Source: Ectothiorhodospira lacustris
Lineage (GTDB): Bacteria; Pseudomonadota; Gammaproteobacteria; Ectothiorhodospirales; Ectothiorhodospiraceae
NCBI RefSeq assembly: GCF_022227845.1
Contig: NZ_JAJNQN010000002.1
Span: forward strand, 1 to 64,000
Direction of reading: 5' to 3'
DNA length: 64,000 nt
The translations under genes were made by a program, and so were the position numbers. A model generated the notes under the pieces. It saw nothing but the letters and a program-made list of their open reading frames with translations. It was not told where the DNA came from and did not search any database. Below, one piece after another: positions 45,901 through 56,494 of this stretch (positions within the stretch are counted from its first letter, which is position 1; every line of letters begins with the position of its first letter).

Positions 45901-46447
45901 CGTGGACTGGGACAACCGGGAGGTGGTGATTCCCAACAAAAACTTCATCACCGAACGACTGATCAACTGGACCCTGTCGGACACGGTCACCCGACTGGTG
46001 ATCCCGGTGGGGGTCAGCTACTCGGCGGATGTGGACCTGGTGCGGGAGACTCTGCTGCAGATCGCGGCGGAAAACCCCCAGGTACTCAAGGAACCGGGCC
46101 CCAGCGTGTTCTTCATCCACTTCGGTGACAGCGCCCTGAACTTCGAGCTACGGGTCTACGTGAGCCAGTTGCGGGAACGGCTGATGACCACCAGCGAACT
46201 GCACACCACCATCATCAAGCGTTTCCGGGCACTGGGCATCGAGATCGCCTTCCCGCAGATGGATCTGCATATACGGGACATGGTCCCCGCGCCCGGTGGC
46301 CCCACCCAGTCGCCAGCCGCCGGCCAGCCGCCCCGCGCCCGAGGCGCGGCGGACATGGACCCGGGCCTGGAGCTACCGGAACCGGGGCCTGAAAATCCGG
46401 ATTCCGAGTCTTCATTGGGCACCGAACCGGGAGAACGCAGTGACTGA
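42914..46447 (+). CDS. mscK: MscK/KefA-type mechanosensitive channel
   Basis: An 1177-residue channel. Signal peptide (residues about 1-30, ending near PVPAQ), a long coiled-coil periplasmic domain (about 60-450), roughly ten membrane helices (about 480-930), then the MscS core beginning near residue 945: LGLGFGLQEVVANFVSGLIM, the beta domain VRVGDTITIGEYSGTVARI and IPNKNFITERLINW. The C-terminal tail is Pro/Glu-rich. It opens under membrane tension to release solutes, fitting a betaine-accumulating organism. The ATG at 42914 begins the signal peptide. Confidence 0.92.
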   Translation: MSTQRLTIRLLLMLALYLGLGMPVPAQEAGVAPPTGPAPVSQTELDTQRDSLNQSIARIRSLAEAVDTAPAEAWLRTSPEQRLSQRAGDGELSETERTLWQTALEQERSAVERLRGALDRAGIAKAATDRLQEARQRLDQSLRQPYSPGEDRSISQIEDDIGLLERRREQTALELDQRRVTLSRLEEQSRTQAETLERLQHQRTEELEALPPTPEDAELSNAVEAARHAITRRADARIIAAQLDGQSLTPRIEVLRLEIPALELELRWLRAGLAELERELGERSSEELRTLQQGLQRLVEREPEARTRFAGEIQALRVRFDRIAETQARVRTLQQERDRYVRIERELTQTLANVRERLEVGGLTEALGSLFLEEQRRLRDLEEARYAVRGIERELAQSRLRAITLREQLSTQPRAVILNGDDLGQGELRRLQEQALTIQLHAEDTLADQLRQTELRLRTVVVLVDELDQILRETLLWWPSHVPVGVDWSVRIPAATLALLDPTAWQEVYKVLWDVTVGSPIALGLTLLLALSLYVPGRRTPSHLEDLAARTRHRFTDSIKLTLQALGWSLLRVLPIPVLLMATSLRLEAIPEVGHGVEALATIFFSTSIWWLAGHLLILLTHKNGVGTAHFKWNPLMVRRLRRHLTWFLPTQLLLILLLALTFSHPSDQVFDVFGRMALLAAVVVSALFGWWLLSPFPEGEEPPLKERRRRMLRTVIGVAVLTLAGLTLAGYLLTVAELMSRSIDTLVIVGIVWLGYNLSARALILSETRLRVRRMREQRAKAATMESSSAGTGAEGGLDIPEPHLSMEDVNLQTRTLMRITVWAAVALALFWAWSDVLPALTWLDGITLWSRTIMVGEAEVLSRVSLLNFLMAIFLGVVFTLAARNLPGLVEILLSRSTQMDASGRYTVTMLLRYALTVVAIISVFSLLGLRWSELQWMVAALTLGLGFGLQEVVANFVSGLIMLFERPVRVGDTITIGEYSGTVARIRTRATTIVDWDNREVVIPNKNFITERLINWTLSDTVTRLVIPVGVSYSADVDLVRETLLQIAAENPQVLKEPGPSVFFIHFGDSALNFELRVYVSQLRERLMTTSELHTTIIKRFRALGIEIAFPQMDLHIRDMVPAPGGPTQSPAAGQPPRARGAADMDPGLELPEPGPENPDSESSLGTEPGERSD

Positions 46448-46526
46448 CACTCTCAACATCCTCAAAAAAATCGGCAAGCTGCTCACCGACTGCGACAATC
46501 CCCGCTGCAGCTACCGGGCGAACTGA
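46440..46526 (+). CDS. 28-codon ORF overlapping the mscK stop
   Basis: From GTG at 46440 (overlapping the mscK end by 8 bases) a frame encodes VTDTLNILKKIGKLLTDCDN and then PRCSYRAN, stopping 2 bases before the reverse transcriptase start. It could be a tiny leader peptide coupling mscK translation to the defence gene, or the left-over 5' end of a gene interrupted when the island arrived. No family recognised; it may not be translated. Confidence 0.3.
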   Translation: MTDTLNILKKIGKLLTDCDNPRCSYRAN

Positions 46527-46528
46527 CA

Positions 46529-49500
46529 ATGAAAACGAAAGCAATTCGCACTTGGCAGGATGTAGACCTGACAGACCTCTTTTTCGCGTTCCGGAAGGCC
46601 AAGGCCGACTGCTTTTTTGAGCGCTCCATCTGTATTGCCCGCGAGTTTGCCAATTACGAGCACGACTTGGCTCAGAGGCTGACGGCCTTGCTTGCTCGCC
46701 TGCATCAGGACCAAGTAGAAGCCTTGCTTGCAGAGAACCTCGGGCAGAGGCGCGTGGTTGCCAAGAAACTGGGTACCGCCGCCAAATCACCAAAAAAACG
46801 CACTACACCTGATGGCCATGGCTTTTTCTCCGATCCTATCCGTGCGTTTGATCACTTGTACGACTCACACGATCTGACACCAGAGTTTCGGCTGATCGGG
46901 GACTTCCCGGTCGAGATGCACGTCTTGTCAGCGCTATGGATCAACTTGATCGGCCACAAGTTTGACGCAGCGCTTTCTAAATCGGCCTACGGTTCACGAC
47001 TACGCCGCTATCGGCCGGAGCCTGGCGCACCGAAAGGCAGTGTCGGGGATTACCACCTAGAAGCGATCGGGTCTTTCCAGCCGTACTTCGGACCATACAA
47101 GGAATGGCGAAATCGTGGCCTAAGAGCCATTCGCACCGAGTTGGAAGCCGGACACGCGGTTGTTGCGATTTCGATGGACCTGACCAGCTATTACCATCTC
47201 ATTGATCCTACCTTCATTTCCGATAGTCGATTCCTTGCAATGGCTGGTATTTCGCTTTCCGAATGGGAACAGAACTTCACCCGAGGCTTTACGGCTATAC
47301 TGGTCGAGTGGTCCAAGCAAGTCGCGAGTGAAATGCACGCGCTGGGTTGCAGTAAAGTCGCAGTCGGTGGGCTACCAATCGGCCTATCACTTTCGAGGGT
47401 GGCTGCCAATGCTTTGTTGGCCGGATTGGATCACGACATTGAGCAGGGACTGACGCCGGTTTATTACGGTCGGTATGTCGATGACCTGTTCCTGGTGTTG
47501 CGCGACCCAGGTCATCTGGTTTCAGCAGACCAGGTTTTGTCGTACTTTGCTGCACGAACGCAGAGCTTTCCGAGTGACGGCAGGGCCACGAAGGGCGAAG
47601 TTTATTTGACCTTGCCCGGAGAGTTTCAGGGCAAGACGAAGTTATTGCTGCAACAGAGCAAGCAAAAGACCTTTTTCCTGCAGGGACAGGTAGGCATCGA
47701 CCTGCTGAGCAACATTGAATCACAGATTCGTAGCGTTTCCAGCGAGCGCAGGTTGATGGCATCTCCAGACCGACTGGAGTCTATGGCGTCGGCCAAAGTT
47801 CTCACCGCTGCGGGGCATCCATCTGAAGAAGCCGACACGCTGCGACGTGCAGACAGCTTGTCCGTGCGTCGGCTTGGGTGGTCGATACAGCTGAGAGCGG
47901 TGGAGACCTTGGCGCGCGACCTGCGCGAAGATGATTGGCGACAGGAGCGCAAGCAGTTCTATGAGTTTGCGCATAGTCATATCTTGCGGCCAGACAAAAT
48001 CCTCGATCATCTAGACTACCTTCCGCGCTTGCTATCTCTAGCAGTCGCGTTGATGGACTGGCCTGATGCCCACCGGTTAGTCGAGTCAACCTTGAATGCA
48101 TTGAAAGCGCTGCAGGCCAAGACCGCATCATCGGAGGTCAAGGTGAACGGTTTCAGGGCCAAGCCTTGTGCCGAAGGCCGATTATGGGACGGACTCCTTA
48201 AGACCACACTGGACTTGGCGAGCGACGCTCTTCTGCGATCAGTGCGCTGGAGCCACAGCAAGGGAGCCATGCGCCCGCTCGGCAAAACCGCTCTCGACGT
48301 CTGTGAAGCAGTCGGCCTTGGAAAAAACGTTGAGTCCATTGCAGCTCAGGCACTGGGCTTGCGTGAAACAGATTGGGCGAAATCGGCTTACAAGGATCAC
48401 CTGCGCAGGCATGCGGCCCGCCAGCGACCGGCCGTTAAGCAAGAACACCAATTGCATCACATCTATCCGCACGAACACGACCTGTGCGACTTTTTGAAAA
48501 AATCGGTCGCATCCGTCAACGGCACTGGCGCTGCACGTGTTCCCTCGCGTTGCATCGACACTTCTGAAGGCGCCTTAACGCCATCGCTGTTGCCATACCT
48601 CCTGCCCACTCGTCCATATACTGCGCAAGAAGTATCTTTGTTCCTACCAGAGGAATGCGTCTTCGAAGGCTTGGGCGATGCTCCAGCACGGAACTGGGCA
48701 AGATACGTCCAGGCGGTGCGGGGGATATGGGTTTTGGGTTCGCTGGTTCAGACTGACCTCATCCATAATGACAAGGACGAGAGCACGAAGGAAGATAAGC
48801 CAACTCCTGAGCGCATTGCAAGAATGGGGGGTAGTAGGGCAGTGCCGAAAGTAAGGCTGGGAATCAGCAGCCTGCTGACCAATGACGAGAGCTTCATTGC
48901 TGCAGCCAACGGACGTTCAGATCTTTCACGCAGCAGATACCAGCGCATTCAGCGCCTGATCAATCAGGCCATTGATGCCTATCCGCGACCAACGCACTTG
49001 ATGCTGCCTGAATTGTCACTTCCCGAGCGATGGATCGACACCGTATCCCGACTTCTTCAGGAGGCGGGAATTAGCCTGATTGCTGGCCTCGATTACCACC
49101 GGGGGCCTTCTTCCGAGGCTCACAGCGAGGCGGTCCTGGTTTTGGCGGATGACAGGCTGGGATTTCCGTCATCGGTTCAGATCCGGCAGGCGAAGTCTCT
49201 GCCTGCGGCAGGTGAGGAAGAAACCTTGTTGCGGTTATTCGGGTTGCAATGGCCGGCGCATTTGGCTAACGAGCGCAAGCCCGTTTACATTCACTACGGT
49301 TTCTGCTTTGGTGTTCTGATCTGCTCTGAGTTGCAGAACATTGCACATCGCCAGCAATTCCAGGGCAACGTAGATTGCATGATGATCCTTTCCTGGAACC
49401 AGGACCTGGAGACATTTTCTGCGCTCGTGGAATCAGCAAGCCTAGACGTCCACGCACACATTGCACTCGTTAACAACCGGAAATATGGTGATAGCAGGGT

Positions 49501-49708
49501 GAGAAACCCAGCCAAAGAAGCCTTCAAGCGAGACGCTTGCAGGCTTCGTGGAGGCGAGAATGAGCATGTGGCCGTCGTGGAACTGGAAATTGCAAACCTT
49601 CGAGCTTTCCAGAGCCGTGAAAAGCGTTGGCCTCGTGAGGATGATCCGTATAAGCCGGTGCCTGAGGGGTTCGCCGTTGCGAAGTTTCGTAAGACGATAC
49701 CACGATAA
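46529..49708 (+). CDS. Reverse transcriptase-nitrilase fusion (UG1/DRT type 1 antiphage architecture)
   Basis: A 1059-residue protein of the unknown-group (UG) reverse transcriptases. RT palm: motif A VVAISMDLTSYYHLIDP (Asp217), motif B VGGLPIGLSLSR (280-290), motif C YYGRYVDDLFLVL (YVDD 316-319), then KTKLLLQQSKQKTF. Residues about 420-760 are mainly helical, with a His-rich QEHQLHHIYPHEHD near 638-651. The C-terminus (about 775-1050) is a carbon-nitrogen hydrolase: Glu828 in LMLPELSLPE, Lys889 in RQAKSLPAAGEE, Cys932 in GVLICSEL, so the E-K-C triad looks intact. This order is that of DRT type 1 defence proteins. GC is clearly lower than in neighbours. Substrate of either domain is unknown. 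Confidence 0.88.
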   Translation: MKTKAIRTWQDVDLTDLFFAFRKAKADCFFERSICIAREFANYEHDLAQRLTALLARLHQDQVEALLAENLGQRRVVAKKLGTAAKSPKKRTTPDGHGFFSDPIRAFDHLYDSHDLTPEFRLIGDFPVEMHVLSALWINLIGHKFDAALSKSAYGSRLRRYRPEPGAPKGSVGDYHLEAIGSFQPYFGPYKEWRNRGLRAIRTELEAGHAVVAISMDLTSYYHLIDPTFISDSRFLAMAGISLSEWEQNFTRGFTAILVEWSKQVASEMHALGCSKVAVGGLPIGLSLSRVAANALLAGLDHDIEQGLTPVYYGRYVDDLFLVLRDPGHLVSADQVLSYFAARTQSFPSDGRATKGEVYLTLPGEFQGKTKLLLQQSKQKTFFLQGQVGIDLLSNIESQIRSVSSERRLMASPDRLESMASAKVLTAAGHPSEEADTLRRADSLSVRRLGWSIQLRAVETLARDLREDDWRQERKQFYEFAHSHILRPDKILDHLDYLPRLLSLAVALMDWPDAHRLVESTLNALKALQAKTASSEVKVNGFRAKPCAEGRLWDGLLKTTLDLASDALLRSVRWSHSKGAMRPLGKTALDVCEAVGLGKNVESIAAQALGLRETDWAKSAYKDHLRRHAARQRPAVKQEHQLHHIYPHEHDLCDFLKKSVASVNGTGAARVPSRCIDTSEGALTPSLLPYLLPTRPYTAQEVSLFLPEECVFEGLGDAPARNWARYVQAVRGIWVLGSLVQTDLIHNDKDESTKEDKPTPERIARMGGSRAVPKVRLGISSLLTNDESFIAAANGRSDLSRSRYQRIQRLINQAIDAYPRPTHLMLPELSLPERWIDTVSRLLQEAGISLIAGLDYHRGPSSEAHSEAVLVLADDRLGFPSSVQIRQAKSLPAAGEEETLLRLFGLQWPAHLANERKPVYIHYGFCFGVLICSELQNIAHRQQFQGNVDCMMILSWNQDLETFSALVESASLDVHAHIALVNNRKYGDSRVRNPAKEAFKRDACRLRGGENEHVAVVELEIANLRAFQSREKRWPREDDPYKPVPEGFAVAKFRKTIPR

Positions 49709-49738
49709 AGCTAGAGCACCGCATCAAGGAATAGCCAG

Positions 49739-50731
49739 ATGAGCTACCACAAACCCTGGAAAAGCTACGACGATCAACTGAACCAACTAATCGAACGTGG
49801 AATGCTTGTCACCGACCGGGAGCGTGCGCTCGACTACCTGGAGCGCATCGGCTACTACCGCCTGAGCGGCTACTGGTTCGCGTGCCGCGAGCGTAGCGGG
49901 CCGCTGTGCCTGTTGGACGAGCATGACAGGAAGACGAAGAGAGGGCGCGTGGAACGCATTGCGCTGGACTCGTTTCGGGCGGGGACGACCTTCCAAAACG
50001 CGGTGGATCTCTACGTGTTCGATAAGCAGTTGCGGCTGCTGGTGCTGGACGCGCTCGAGCGCATTGAGGTGGCGCTGCGGGTAGATGTATCGCATACGCT
50101 TGGCAAGCTCGACCGGTTCGCCTATCTCAAGCCCGAGCTGCTCCACAACGAGTTCAGCGCCAAGCTGGACAAAGACAGCGGCCTGACCAAGCATCACAAC
50201 TGGCTGAGCAAACATGCCCAGTTGATCGGTCGCTCCAAGGAAGAGTTCGTACGCCACAACCGGGCCAAGTACGGCCTGCCACTAGCAATCTGGGTGGCGT
50301 GTGAGGTGTGGGACTTCGGCACGCTCTCGACACTGTTCGACGGTATGCGCGAAGCTGAGCAGGATATGATTGCCAGCCAGTACGGCGTCAGCAATGGCCG
50401 CACCTTCGCCACCTGGTTGCGGAGCCTGAACTATCTGCGCAACATCTGTGCACATCACAGTCGTTTGTGGAACCGCAACATCGTCGATCAGCCCAAACTG
50501 CCGTCAGCCACCGAATTGCAGTGGGTGGCTCCATTTGAGGCTGATGCGCATGCCCGGGCACGCTGCTTCCTGCTGCTGAAAATCGCCTCCCATCTGCTGC
50601 GCGTGTTCAACCCAAAGTCGAGCTGGTCGGAGCGAATGAAGGCGCATTTGCTAGCCTTCCCCAATCTGACCCACCTTGAGTTGAACTTGGCGGGGATGGG
50701 CGCGCCGACTGGCTGGGAAGCTGAGTGGTGA
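49739..50731 (+). CDS. Abi_2 (AbiD/AbiF-type) HEPN protein
   Basis: A 330-residue abortive-infection family protein. It starts with the Abi_2 pattern (QLIERGMLVTDRERALDYLE, RIGYYRLSGYW) and carries two HEPN RxxxxH motifs: RVDVSH (114-119) and RNICAH (234-239, in LNYLRNICAHHSRLWNR). Two such motifs in one chain suggest an intramolecular RNase site, as in Cas13. It lies 30 bases after the RT-nitrilase gene with AAGGA before the ATG, so they form a likely operon. A convergent small RNA candidate ends 12 bases beyond its stop. Its GC is nearer the host average than that of the RT gene. RNA target unknown. Confidence 0.88.
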   Translation: MSYHKPWKSYDDQLNQLIERGMLVTDRERALDYLERIGYYRLSGYWFACRERSGPLCLLDEHDRKTKRGRVERIALDSFRAGTTFQNAVDLYVFDKQLRLLVLDALERIEVALRVDVSHTLGKLDRFAYLKPELLHNEFSAKLDKDSGLTKHHNWLSKHAQLIGRSKEEFVRHNRAKYGLPLAIWVACEVWDFGTLSTLFDGMREAEQDMIASQYGVSNGRTFATWLRSLNYLRNICAHHSRLWNRNIVDQPKLPSATELQWVAPFEADAHARARCFLLLKIASHLLRVFNPKSSWSERMKAHLLAFPNLTHLELNLAGMGAPTGWEAEW

Positions 50732-50742
50732 ACACAGGCAAC

Positions 50743-50798
50743 AAAAAAACCCCTCAGCAGCTCCCCGCCGAAGCGGGGTCACCGAGAGGGGCCGTGTT
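50743..50798 (-). ncRNA. Candidate 56-nt structured small RNA convergent to the Abi_2 gene
   Basis: Minus-strand transcript predicted from a strong promoter (50806-50834), starting near A50798. It contains an outer stem CCCCTC (791-786)/GAGGGG (755-750), an inner hairpin CCCCGC-TTCG-GCGGGG (778-763) with a stable UUCG tetraloop, and ends in seven T residues (50749-50743), i.e. an intrinsic terminator. It does not overlap the Abi_2 coding sequence but is complementary to its mRNA 3' end. Structured RNAs near abiF genes have been described, as I recall; whether this belongs to that family needs a covariance search. It could also simply be a terminator. Confidence 0.55.
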
Positions 50799-50805
50799 GG
50801 CGACA

Positions 50806-50834
50806 ATTCTAGGCTTGGCTAGCCTGCCCGTCAA
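50806..50834 (-). promoter_or_regulatory. Sigma-70 promoter of the small RNA
   Basis: On the minus strand TTGACG (50834-50829), a 17-bp spacer and TAGAAT (50811-50806) make a near-consensus promoter, with the expected start at A50798. No minus-strand protein gene lies downstream of it before the terminator, so it should drive only the short RNA. Confidence 0.65.
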
Positions 50835-50982
50835 TATCCTTGACAATCCACAGGCGCTCACTGGGTAGCGCGGTCTGTTCCCCTTGGGCACCCGCATGAC
50901 GGAGGGGGCTTAAAACCCAGGCCGGCCTCTGGCTCCCTTAATCTGTCCGTTTTCCTACTGCACGCCTGCGACCCGAAGCAAC

Positions 50983-51303
50983 TCAGTCGGGAAGATGATC
51001 TGGCGGGAGGGGTCCCGGCCCGTCGATCCGGACTGAGAACGCCAGCCCCTTGAAGGGCTTGAGCAGATCCAGCTCCCGGTTGAGGCACTCAGCCACATGG
51101 GTGGCCCGTTCCTCCTCAAGGATCCAGAGGCAGACCCGCTCCACCCCCTGATAGGTGAGACCGAAAAAGGTGACGTGTTCGGGAAAGTTGATGCCTCGGC
51201 CTGCCAGCGTGGTCGCCTGGAGAGCCCCCTCGCGGGCAGCGATGGCCAGGGCCTGTTCTTCGAACTCGTCCGCCACCACCGCCACCAGTAGTGCATTGCC
51301 CAT
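50983..51303 (-). CDS. PII-like signalling protein
   Basis: A 106-residue protein with the compact alpha/beta pattern of PII-like (nitrogen regulatory PII superfamily) proteins: NALLVAVVADEFEEQALAIA, GINFPEHVTFFG and LAFSVRI strands. It lacks the T-loop tyrosine region of GlnB/GlnK. The ATG at 51303 gives the family N-terminus; an upstream ATG at 51327 is possible. It is divergent from gltBD, which suggests a link to nitrogen or carbon status, an inference. It marks the right edge of the defence block. Confidence 0.6.
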   Translation of the reverse strand: MGNALLVAVVADEFEEQALAIAAREGALQATTLAGRGINFPEHVTFFGLTYQGVERVCLWILEEERATHVAECLNRELDLLKPFKGLAFSVRIDGPGPLPPDHLPD

Positions 51304-51825
51304 GCCCTCGCCCTCTTGAACCAACAACCGGCCCTCTCCTGCGCCCGGCCGCGCACCCCGAAGGTAGAGAGGTCATGTGAGGACCATACCACCTGCACCG
51401 AATCCCGCAAAGATTGCCCGGCATTGGTGCACCCGTACTGCAAATGCCCGCTCACCGTGCTTCATCCAGCCTCGTGTCCGCAAAGCCATCGCAATTATTG
51501 GCACGCAGATTGATATGAAACAGCAGCGCAGGAATAAGACGCCCTGATCATTACGAAAAACCGTAGAAAAACACAAAAACCGACATAAAAACGCCCCAAA
51601 ACAGTTCATAAGCGCACCAAAGCAGTGCATTTTTACAAGTTCTTGAAGGAAGCGCCCCTCGCCCTCTGGCGTCGCGGACACTTTCCCTTTAATCTCCCCA
51701 ACCCGCCGGAATTCGGCGATATTCACGGAAGTCAATAGCAGGAGGTCGGCGACGGTAAAACCGCCCGATCCCCCGACACCAGACTGCCGCGGATGCCGGC
51801 CAGCGACCAGATACCAGCGAGGTCA
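51304..51825. other. Divergent regulatory region before gltB, with NtrC-like dyad
   Basis: 522 bases without a supported gene; a minus-strand frame at 51373-51735 has atypical composition and no ribosome site. From 51515 to 51640 the DNA is AT-rich. CGCACC-AAAGC-AGTGCA at 51613-51629 matches the NtrC dyad TGCACC-N5-GGTGCA at 10 of 12 positions. This fits regulation of glutamate synthase by nitrogen. No confident promoter is identified. Confidence 0.45.

Positions 51826-56494
<4,669 letters not shown>

Follow-up and report, generated by a model that had tools for sequence, protein, structure and literature searches.

A putative AbiF-type toxin–RNA pair with a convergent small RNA, located behind a UG5 reverse transcriptase–nitrilase gene in Ectothiorhodospira lacustris and behind other defence operons

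In type III toxin–antitoxin systems, the RNA is encoded upstream of the toxin. Among abortive-infection proteins, AbiF of C. difficile is toxic and is neutralised through direct binding by an upstream noncoding RNA (ncRNA), RCd22 (PMC12373285), and a review reports that an ncRNA inhibits the ribonuclease (RNase) of PbAbiF (PMC12737573). AbiF-type proteins have also been proposed as ancestors of Cas13 (PMC12165695, PMC12373285). In this work we analysed 64,000 nucleotides of Ectothiorhodospira lacustris DNA (assembly GCF_022227845.1, contig NZ_JAJNQN010000002.1, positions 1 to 64,000; hereafter the window), in which an Abi_2 gene stands between a reverse transcriptase (RT)–nitrilase gene and a small RNA on the opposite strand. 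The working unit is probably the Abi_2 protein together with its convergent RNA, an AbiF-type toxin–antitoxin pair that would act as a portable add-on behind several kinds of defence operon.

The Abi_2 gene (49739 to 50731, plus strand) encodes a 330-residue HEPN protein of the Abi_2/AbiD/AbiF family (PF07751, E 3e-53; PADLOC AbiD, E 3e-60). Its AlphaFold2 model (pLDDT 88.4) had a single PDB match at E ≤ 0.001, the PbAbiF dimer bound to ncRNA (8vz6; E 2.7e-16, TM 0.74/0.82). On the basis of this model the protein is predicted to share the AbiF fold, in addition to its family, with the AbiF/AbiFr systems represented by C. difficile AbiF–RCd22 and PbAbiF–ncRNA. An earlier note on this DNA, made from the letters alone, had described a double-HEPN protein. 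Both RxxxxH strings, R114 to H119 and R234 to H239, are present, but the label is overstated, as H119 is poorly kept elsewhere: R234-N-x-x-x-H239 (the RNxxxH motif) is kept in 72 of 72 Abi_2 rows, whereas position 119 is histidine in 11 of the 12 rows of the clade with convergent RNAs and in 10 of the 60 others. Because only R234 to H239 is family-wide, we assign one HEPN motif to each chain. By analogy with AbiF, we infer that Abi_2 is a toxic HEPN ribonuclease.

The small RNA, of about 56 to 60 nt, occupies positions 50741 to 50801 on the minus strand and scores 75.3 bits with our model R1, among whose seeds the window copy is included. It is composed of a CAACAC leader, an outer stem of eight pairs, an inner stem, a variable hairpin and a terminator T-run, and a sigma-70-type promoter, TTGACG-17-TAGAAT (50834 to 50806, minus strand), precedes it with the same spacing as in relatives. 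RNAs of this type were identified immediately downstream of, and convergent to, 12 Abi_2 genes (the window, L006, L007, L036 to L039, L041, L173 and L218 to L220). The short structured form, the CAACA-type leader and the terminator-like stem resemble the RNAs adjoining AbiF genes. However, the AbiF RNA lies upstream in the leader, whereas the window RNA is downstream and convergent with a promoter of its own, a placement that also differs from type III toxin–antitoxin systems, and its sequence is not recognised by the Rfam abiF family, RF03085. All 12 linked loci share the downstream, convergent placement, unlike the upstream same-strand abiF RNA.

The promoter–terminator unit that the earlier note had read on the minus strand, with an RNA of about 56 nt, is thus present, and we regard the RNA as real because it is conserved and covaries in relatives, not because of promoter and terminator counts, which in the window alone do not exceed chance (2 promoters versus 2.1 expected; 4 terminators versus 6.0). 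The fold z of the window RNA is -2.4. Covariation was assessed on 30 aligned copies (12 linked to Abi_2, 18 unlinked), in an alignment fitted to the RNA model, which favours structure; 94.4% of cells were paired, compared to 78.6% in shuffles, and 72 cells showed double changes, compared to 22.0 in shuffles, a count reached by 0 of 500. The stems scored 0.453 for covariation and slid partners at most 0.095. The number of pairs with any double change, nine, was not unusual, being reached by 51 of 500 shuffles. The -10 box of the best promoter pair, searched 2 to 12 nt before AACACGG, ends 5 to 7 nt before this motif in all 12 linked copies, and the pair reached a shuffle p ≤ 0.04 in 11 of them (0.165 in L007). 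Since the element is a strong hairpin where the Abi_2 gene ends, it might merely terminate transcription of Abi_2, with no functional RNA involved. This is very improbable, given that the T-run in the window is terminator-like on the minus strand only, that a promoter stands at fixed spacing, that the Abi_2-linked copies show no base variation in the leader and inner loop and that orphan copies exist without Abi_2.

A search of Rfam returned no match for the window RNA at E ≤ 1, so membership of a known Rfam family was rejected; for abiF RF03085 in particular, there was no match at E ≤ 1 in the window stretch or at E ≤ 2 in L035 to L041. Using blastn with the RNA region against plasmids, seven records were obtained, five with the RNA directly behind an Abi_2 gene, of which all except H52 were retrieved. 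Plasmid-borne copies make up 5 of the 12 linked RNAs. Model R1 matched 3 of 369 genomes of the class, all three used in building it, and 5 of 398 genomes of the phylum. Four of these five were new, three with a convergent Abi_2 gene and one (L221) with none in the 3 kb examined. Among 24 viral Abi_2 loci, the new-type RNA was present in one, L173, which lies on the same contig as L129. The RNA therefore follows a clade of 12 Abi_2 genes and not the RT, and a tie between RNA and RT is ruled out.

In a tree of 72 Abi_2 rows, midpoint-rooted for drawing only, the 12 convergent-type genes form one clade with support 100/99. The sister clade consists of three genes: in L176 and L177 a convergent RNA is present but differs in sequence, and in L009 no RNA was seen beside the Abi_2 gene. 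The next branch, comprising L008, L174 and L175, has upstream RNAs with the leader (C)AACACGGCC. The simplest reading of this tree is a single relocation of the RNA, from the upstream to the downstream side of the gene, that predates the divergence of the 15 rows of the convergent-type clade and its sister.

Canonical abiF and related RNAs were seen directly upstream of Abi_2 and on the same strand in the printed flanks, by eye and without a count, and the leader CAACACGGCC was likewise read by eye in the upstream RNAs of L008, L174, L197, L203 and L205. Rfam abiF RNA was sought in two sets of 18 loci and detected at E ≤ 1 in 10 of the class set, which has 16 non-convergent members, and in 2 of the viral and plasmid set, which has 15. 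The gathering score was exceeded by 4 of the 10 and, in the second set, by L184. This amounts to 12 of the 31 non-convergent loci scanned, and none of the convergent-type loci scanned had a match at E ≤ 1. Weak R1 matches fell in the upstream place in L008, L018, L019, L023, L025, L174, L175, L184, L187, L188, L191, L192, L197, L203 and L205, with one each in L193 and L194. Matches outside this place occurred in L028 and L185, as second ones in L193 and L194, and as several at E > 1 in viral loci. In L019 and L022, a single Abi_2 gene is preceded by a tandem pair of abiF-type RNAs (at Rfam E ≤ 1 in L019; the second in L022 by eye), which recalls the doubled motif of RCd22.

As the RNA follows Abi_2 and related genes carry upstream abiF RNAs, we read the pair as an AbiF-type toxin–RNA pair whose RNA has been relocated and has diverged; the convergent RNA, too, combines a promoter, an AACA-type leader and a terminator-like stem beside Abi_2. 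The earlier suggestion of a HEPN RNase held in check by the RNA is supported as the expected relation, since AbiF–RNA pairs work that way (PMC12373285; PDB 8vz6). Among the open-licence papers listed by our searches we found no account of a convergent abiF-type RNA or of such a cassette behind other defence operons, which is weak evidence of novelty, and the available text of PMC12373285 contains no mention of convergent, antisense, opposite strand, orphan or decoy.

The gene upstream of Abi_2 in the window (46529 to 49708, plus strand) encodes a UG5-type RT fused to a nitrilase domain, 1059 residues in total (PADLOC RT_UG5-nitrilase, 1.2e-277), and ends 30 nt before Abi_2, as the earlier note had it. 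That note had assigned the protein to DRT type 1, the UG1 RT–nitrilase (PDB 9yfd). The RT–nitrilase fusion is indeed common to both, and the nitrilase part matches 9yfd at E 5e-15. However, the UG1 label is ruled out, because RT_UG5-nitrilase scores 922 bits (residues 2 to 1058) and Drt1a 85 bits (5e-25). A further difference is that DRT1 is described as a single-gene system (PMC13275509). The predicted active-site residues are in place, with YVDD at residues 316 to 319 and E828, K889 and C932 in the nitrilase. In an alignment of 81 rows, made up of the window and 80 UG5 loci, some of them partial, Y316 is kept in 81, D318 and D319 in 80 each, E828 in 77, K889 in 79 and C932 in 77. The 80 loci were the best of 419 confirmed UG5 loci, the other 339 being left out.

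The RT, Abi_2 and RNA occupy an insertion of 4.6 kb (46449 to 51035), with an mscK-type gene before it and the gltB side after it. Congener G002 has the mscK-type gene closest to that of the window (99% identical over the MscK stretch searched), and in it flank alignment places window positions 46448 and 51036 only about 127 bp apart. For seven further congeners the distance between the aligned flanks ranges from about 140 to 430 bp, and the ninth (G005) gave a distant match only. The block is missing from eight congeners, and because the flanks nearly abut there we take the three elements to be one joint insertion. The G+C content is 0.55 for the RT and 0.595 for Abi_2, compared to about 0.65 for the flanking genes. 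A 28-codon frame at 46441 to 46525 overlaps the mscK stop and ends just before the RT start, and the insertion begins inside this frame. A scan of 46200 to 51900 found no sense promoter for Abi_2; the sole plus-strand match was a weak promoter-like one before the RT (46444 to 46471), not above chance.

The joint insertion, the 30-nt spacing and the lack of a sense promoter for Abi_2 in that scan would suit a single dedicated system of RT–nitrilase, Abi_2 and RNA, with the RNase gated by cDNA or by the nitrilase, as the earlier note had envisaged. A second locus, in genome G655 (L262, 231 to 5098), also speaks for it: an Abi_2 gene with a convergent RNA overlaps by its start the end of a gene for a 1288-residue protein scoring 1380 bits for Drt1a, a nitrilase-type RT of the other family, genuine UG1/DRT1. 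We nevertheless consider such a system improbable. Tabulation of RT homologues, which the earlier note had proposed, showed no Abi_2 open reading frame (ORF) in the DNA examined at any of the best 80 of 419 UG5 loci, 75 of which had at least 1 kb downstream, and none at the two plasmid UG5 loci examined. In a sample of 388 genomes, five had UG5, and Abi_2 accompanied it only in the E. lacustris genome (G000) and in none of the other four, which may overlap the 80. Seven genomes had Drt1a matches (four full-length, three fragmentary or broken), and within the DNA examined Abi_2 was present in one, G655, a sample that is not independent of the RNA searches, which had already picked out G655. In addition, the cassette occurs behind restriction–modification (RM) and CBASS genes. 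Of the composite proposed earlier, the partnership of Abi_2 and RNA is supported, and the dedicated link to the RT is not.

Six of the 12 convergent-type genes lie no more than 30 bp behind a defence operon, namely one with a UG5 RT, one with a UG1 RT, three of type I RM and one of CBASS. The tight neighbour is HsdS in L007 and L038, a 245-residue protein after a methylase–specificity fusion in L006/L265, and a CBASS cyclase with a 2TM effector in L036. In L038 (1680 to 7413), the Abi_2 and RNA cassette sits inside a type I restriction operon, flanked by hsdS and hsdR. In the sister clade, the neighbours are HsdS (L009) and a SIR2-domain protein (L176), and the Abi_2 gene of L176 overlaps the SIR2-domain gene. 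A co-directional ORF within 40 bp upstream was found for 6 of 12 convergent-type genes versus 4 of 57 other Abi_2 genes (Fisher p 0.0011). Some gap values differ (22 versus 19 in L036, 21 versus 30 in L007, 48 versus 84 in L173) because Abi_2 starts were chosen by rule. The joining of one module to unrelated defence systems has a parallel in the nuclease–protease pairs acquired by Hachiman, AVAST, Lamassu and DRT (PMC12799240), from which the present module differs in being an RNase-family toxin with an RNA.

Plain addiction, in which the pair only stabilises its carrier operon or island and takes no part in a phage response, is rather unlikely. It would fit the 5 plasmid-borne copies among the 12 linked RNAs and the RNA having a promoter of its own, and CreTA sets a precedent as an RNA-antitoxin addiction of CRISPR loci (PMC12737573), but it does not demand that all six tight neighbours belong to defence operons.

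Several points weigh against a portable AbiF-type pair. The rows in the comparison of upstream ORFs are phylogenetically non-independent, and the add-on pattern is not universal, since no tight defence neighbour accompanies the other six convergent-type genes. Upstream of these are a resolvase at 214 bp (L041), an SRAP gene at 268 bp (L039), an ORF at 89 bp for which no family search was made (L037), a helix-turn-helix gene with a PADLOC PD-Lambda-2_B candidate match at 48 or 84 bp (L173) and an 855-residue ORF without family match at a distance of at least 115 bp (L219/L263); L220/L264 lacks a co-directional gene immediately upstream. Two of the linked copies, L037 and L039, have a poor -10 box. 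As no Rfam abiF match was found at E ≤ 1, kinship to abiF RNA is drawn from the position, leader and architecture of the RNA.

Family, predicted fold, RNA conservation, position and neighbours were observed here, and Abi_2 toxicity and the antitoxin role of the RNA we infer by analogy. If the pair works like C. difficile AbiF–RCd22 and PbAbiF–ncRNA, Abi_2 would be bound and kept inactive by the short structured RNA, which would be transcribed against the gene from a separate promoter. Translation of Abi_2 probably takes place from the transcript of the defence operon in front of it, as the final gene (in the window, of the UG5 RT–nitrilase operon), and that operon would drive it; the RNase would be raised once infection leaves the supply of antitoxin failing or overwhelmed. 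Across the 12 loci, the end of the RNA match varies from 16 nt before the Abi_2 stop to 23 nt beyond it (nine values computed, three taken from coordinates). With the 3′ end of the RNA at or near the Abi_2 stop, transcripts reading through from the operon would be antisense to the RNA and could titrate it, and this head-on placement suggests a switch. A broader possibility, which we put forward tentatively, is that Abi_2 serves as a plug-in last-line toxin for DRT1, UG5 RT, type I RM and CBASS, that induced read-through switches it on by titrating its antitoxin and that late or intergenic orphan RNAs of phages answer it as decoys. The repeated place behind DRT1, UG5 RT, restriction and CBASS genes suggests a shared back-up toxin. 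A clade with the RNA at the other end of the gene, under an independent promoter, also separates cis regulation (leader, premature termination) from trans neutralisation, so that each can be tested singly.

Copies of the new-type RNA without an adjoining Abi_2 gene were found on plasmids L035 and L040, the latter with one sub-threshold Abi_2 match 15 kb away, and on a chromosome (L221). A pattern search for the RNA matched 11 viral contigs, and control patterns with the leader letters rearranged or the inner letters exchanged each matched 0. Conservation of leader and inner bases in the viral copies is by construction, because the pattern fixes them. Abi_2 was present in one of the 11 contigs (L129); the other ten had no PF07751 in the whole record, although the records may be fragments. 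Proteins were searched from nine of these ten contigs (L128 was left out), and eight contigs matched families of terminase, portal or head-tail, tail sheath or helicase proteins; L125, the remaining contig, matched a family of unknown function only. A promoter pair reached shuffle p ≤ 0.04 in 6 of the 13 orphan RNAs examined and did not in the other 7. A looser pattern gave 46 stretches, 35 of them new and none with Abi_2, the weakest of which may be chance terminators.

The canonical abiF pattern matched 34 viral contigs, among them near-identical ones and others that offer little sequence downstream (141 nt in L241); 3 had Abi_2 and 31 did not in the flanking DNA examined, as opposed to whole records. 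The Rfam cut-off was reached by 13 of 14 re-scored RNAs. Two of these canonical viral RNAs, used in blastn against a phage collection, found 1 and 10 records, two phages being entered twice, and three new-type RNAs found no match there. We examined six phages (L256 to L261): Aeromonas PZL-Ah8 and vB_AhaP_PT2, Salicola CGphi29, Rhizobium RHEph21 and Pasto, and Synechococcus S-SZBM1. Their abiF-type RNAs pass the Rfam cut-off in five of the six, with Pasto below it, and several have structural genes on both sides or lie within a tRNA cluster; none of the six genomes contains PF07751. These orphan RNAs are candidate decoys against AbiF-type toxins and, as such, ready candidates for RNA-based anti-defence; if true, phage decoys would answer both the convergent pair and canonical AbiF. 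A DNA region of phage sk1 reportedly protects phage 712 from AbiF, going by the title of a paper in a reference list. For cyanophage S-CREM1 an abiF RNA has previously been published, with no decoy role proposed in the available text (PMC9964418). Phage PhiTE likewise carries an RNA resembling an RNA antitoxin, pseudo-ToxI, and there, in the ToxIN system, suppression of the toxin was demonstrated (PMC5449768), whereas here there are orphan sequences alone.

The window RT, for which phage defence by protein-primed DNA synthesis would be expected, probably works independently, by analogy with other class 3 DRTs. DRT1 and two proteins named DRT5S and DRT5L synthesise template-free DNA, and in DRT1 this DNA synthesis activates the nitrilase (PMC13275509). 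A comparison of the 400-nt flanks of the window RT and nine homologues for an ncRNA of the RT itself showed a shared flank in L049 and L050 only, where about 300 bp upstream of the UG5 RTs are 85% identical and unlike the other flanks compared. The host genome encodes another reverse transcriptase elsewhere (G000:C49:2860-3480; RVT_1, E 4e-39).

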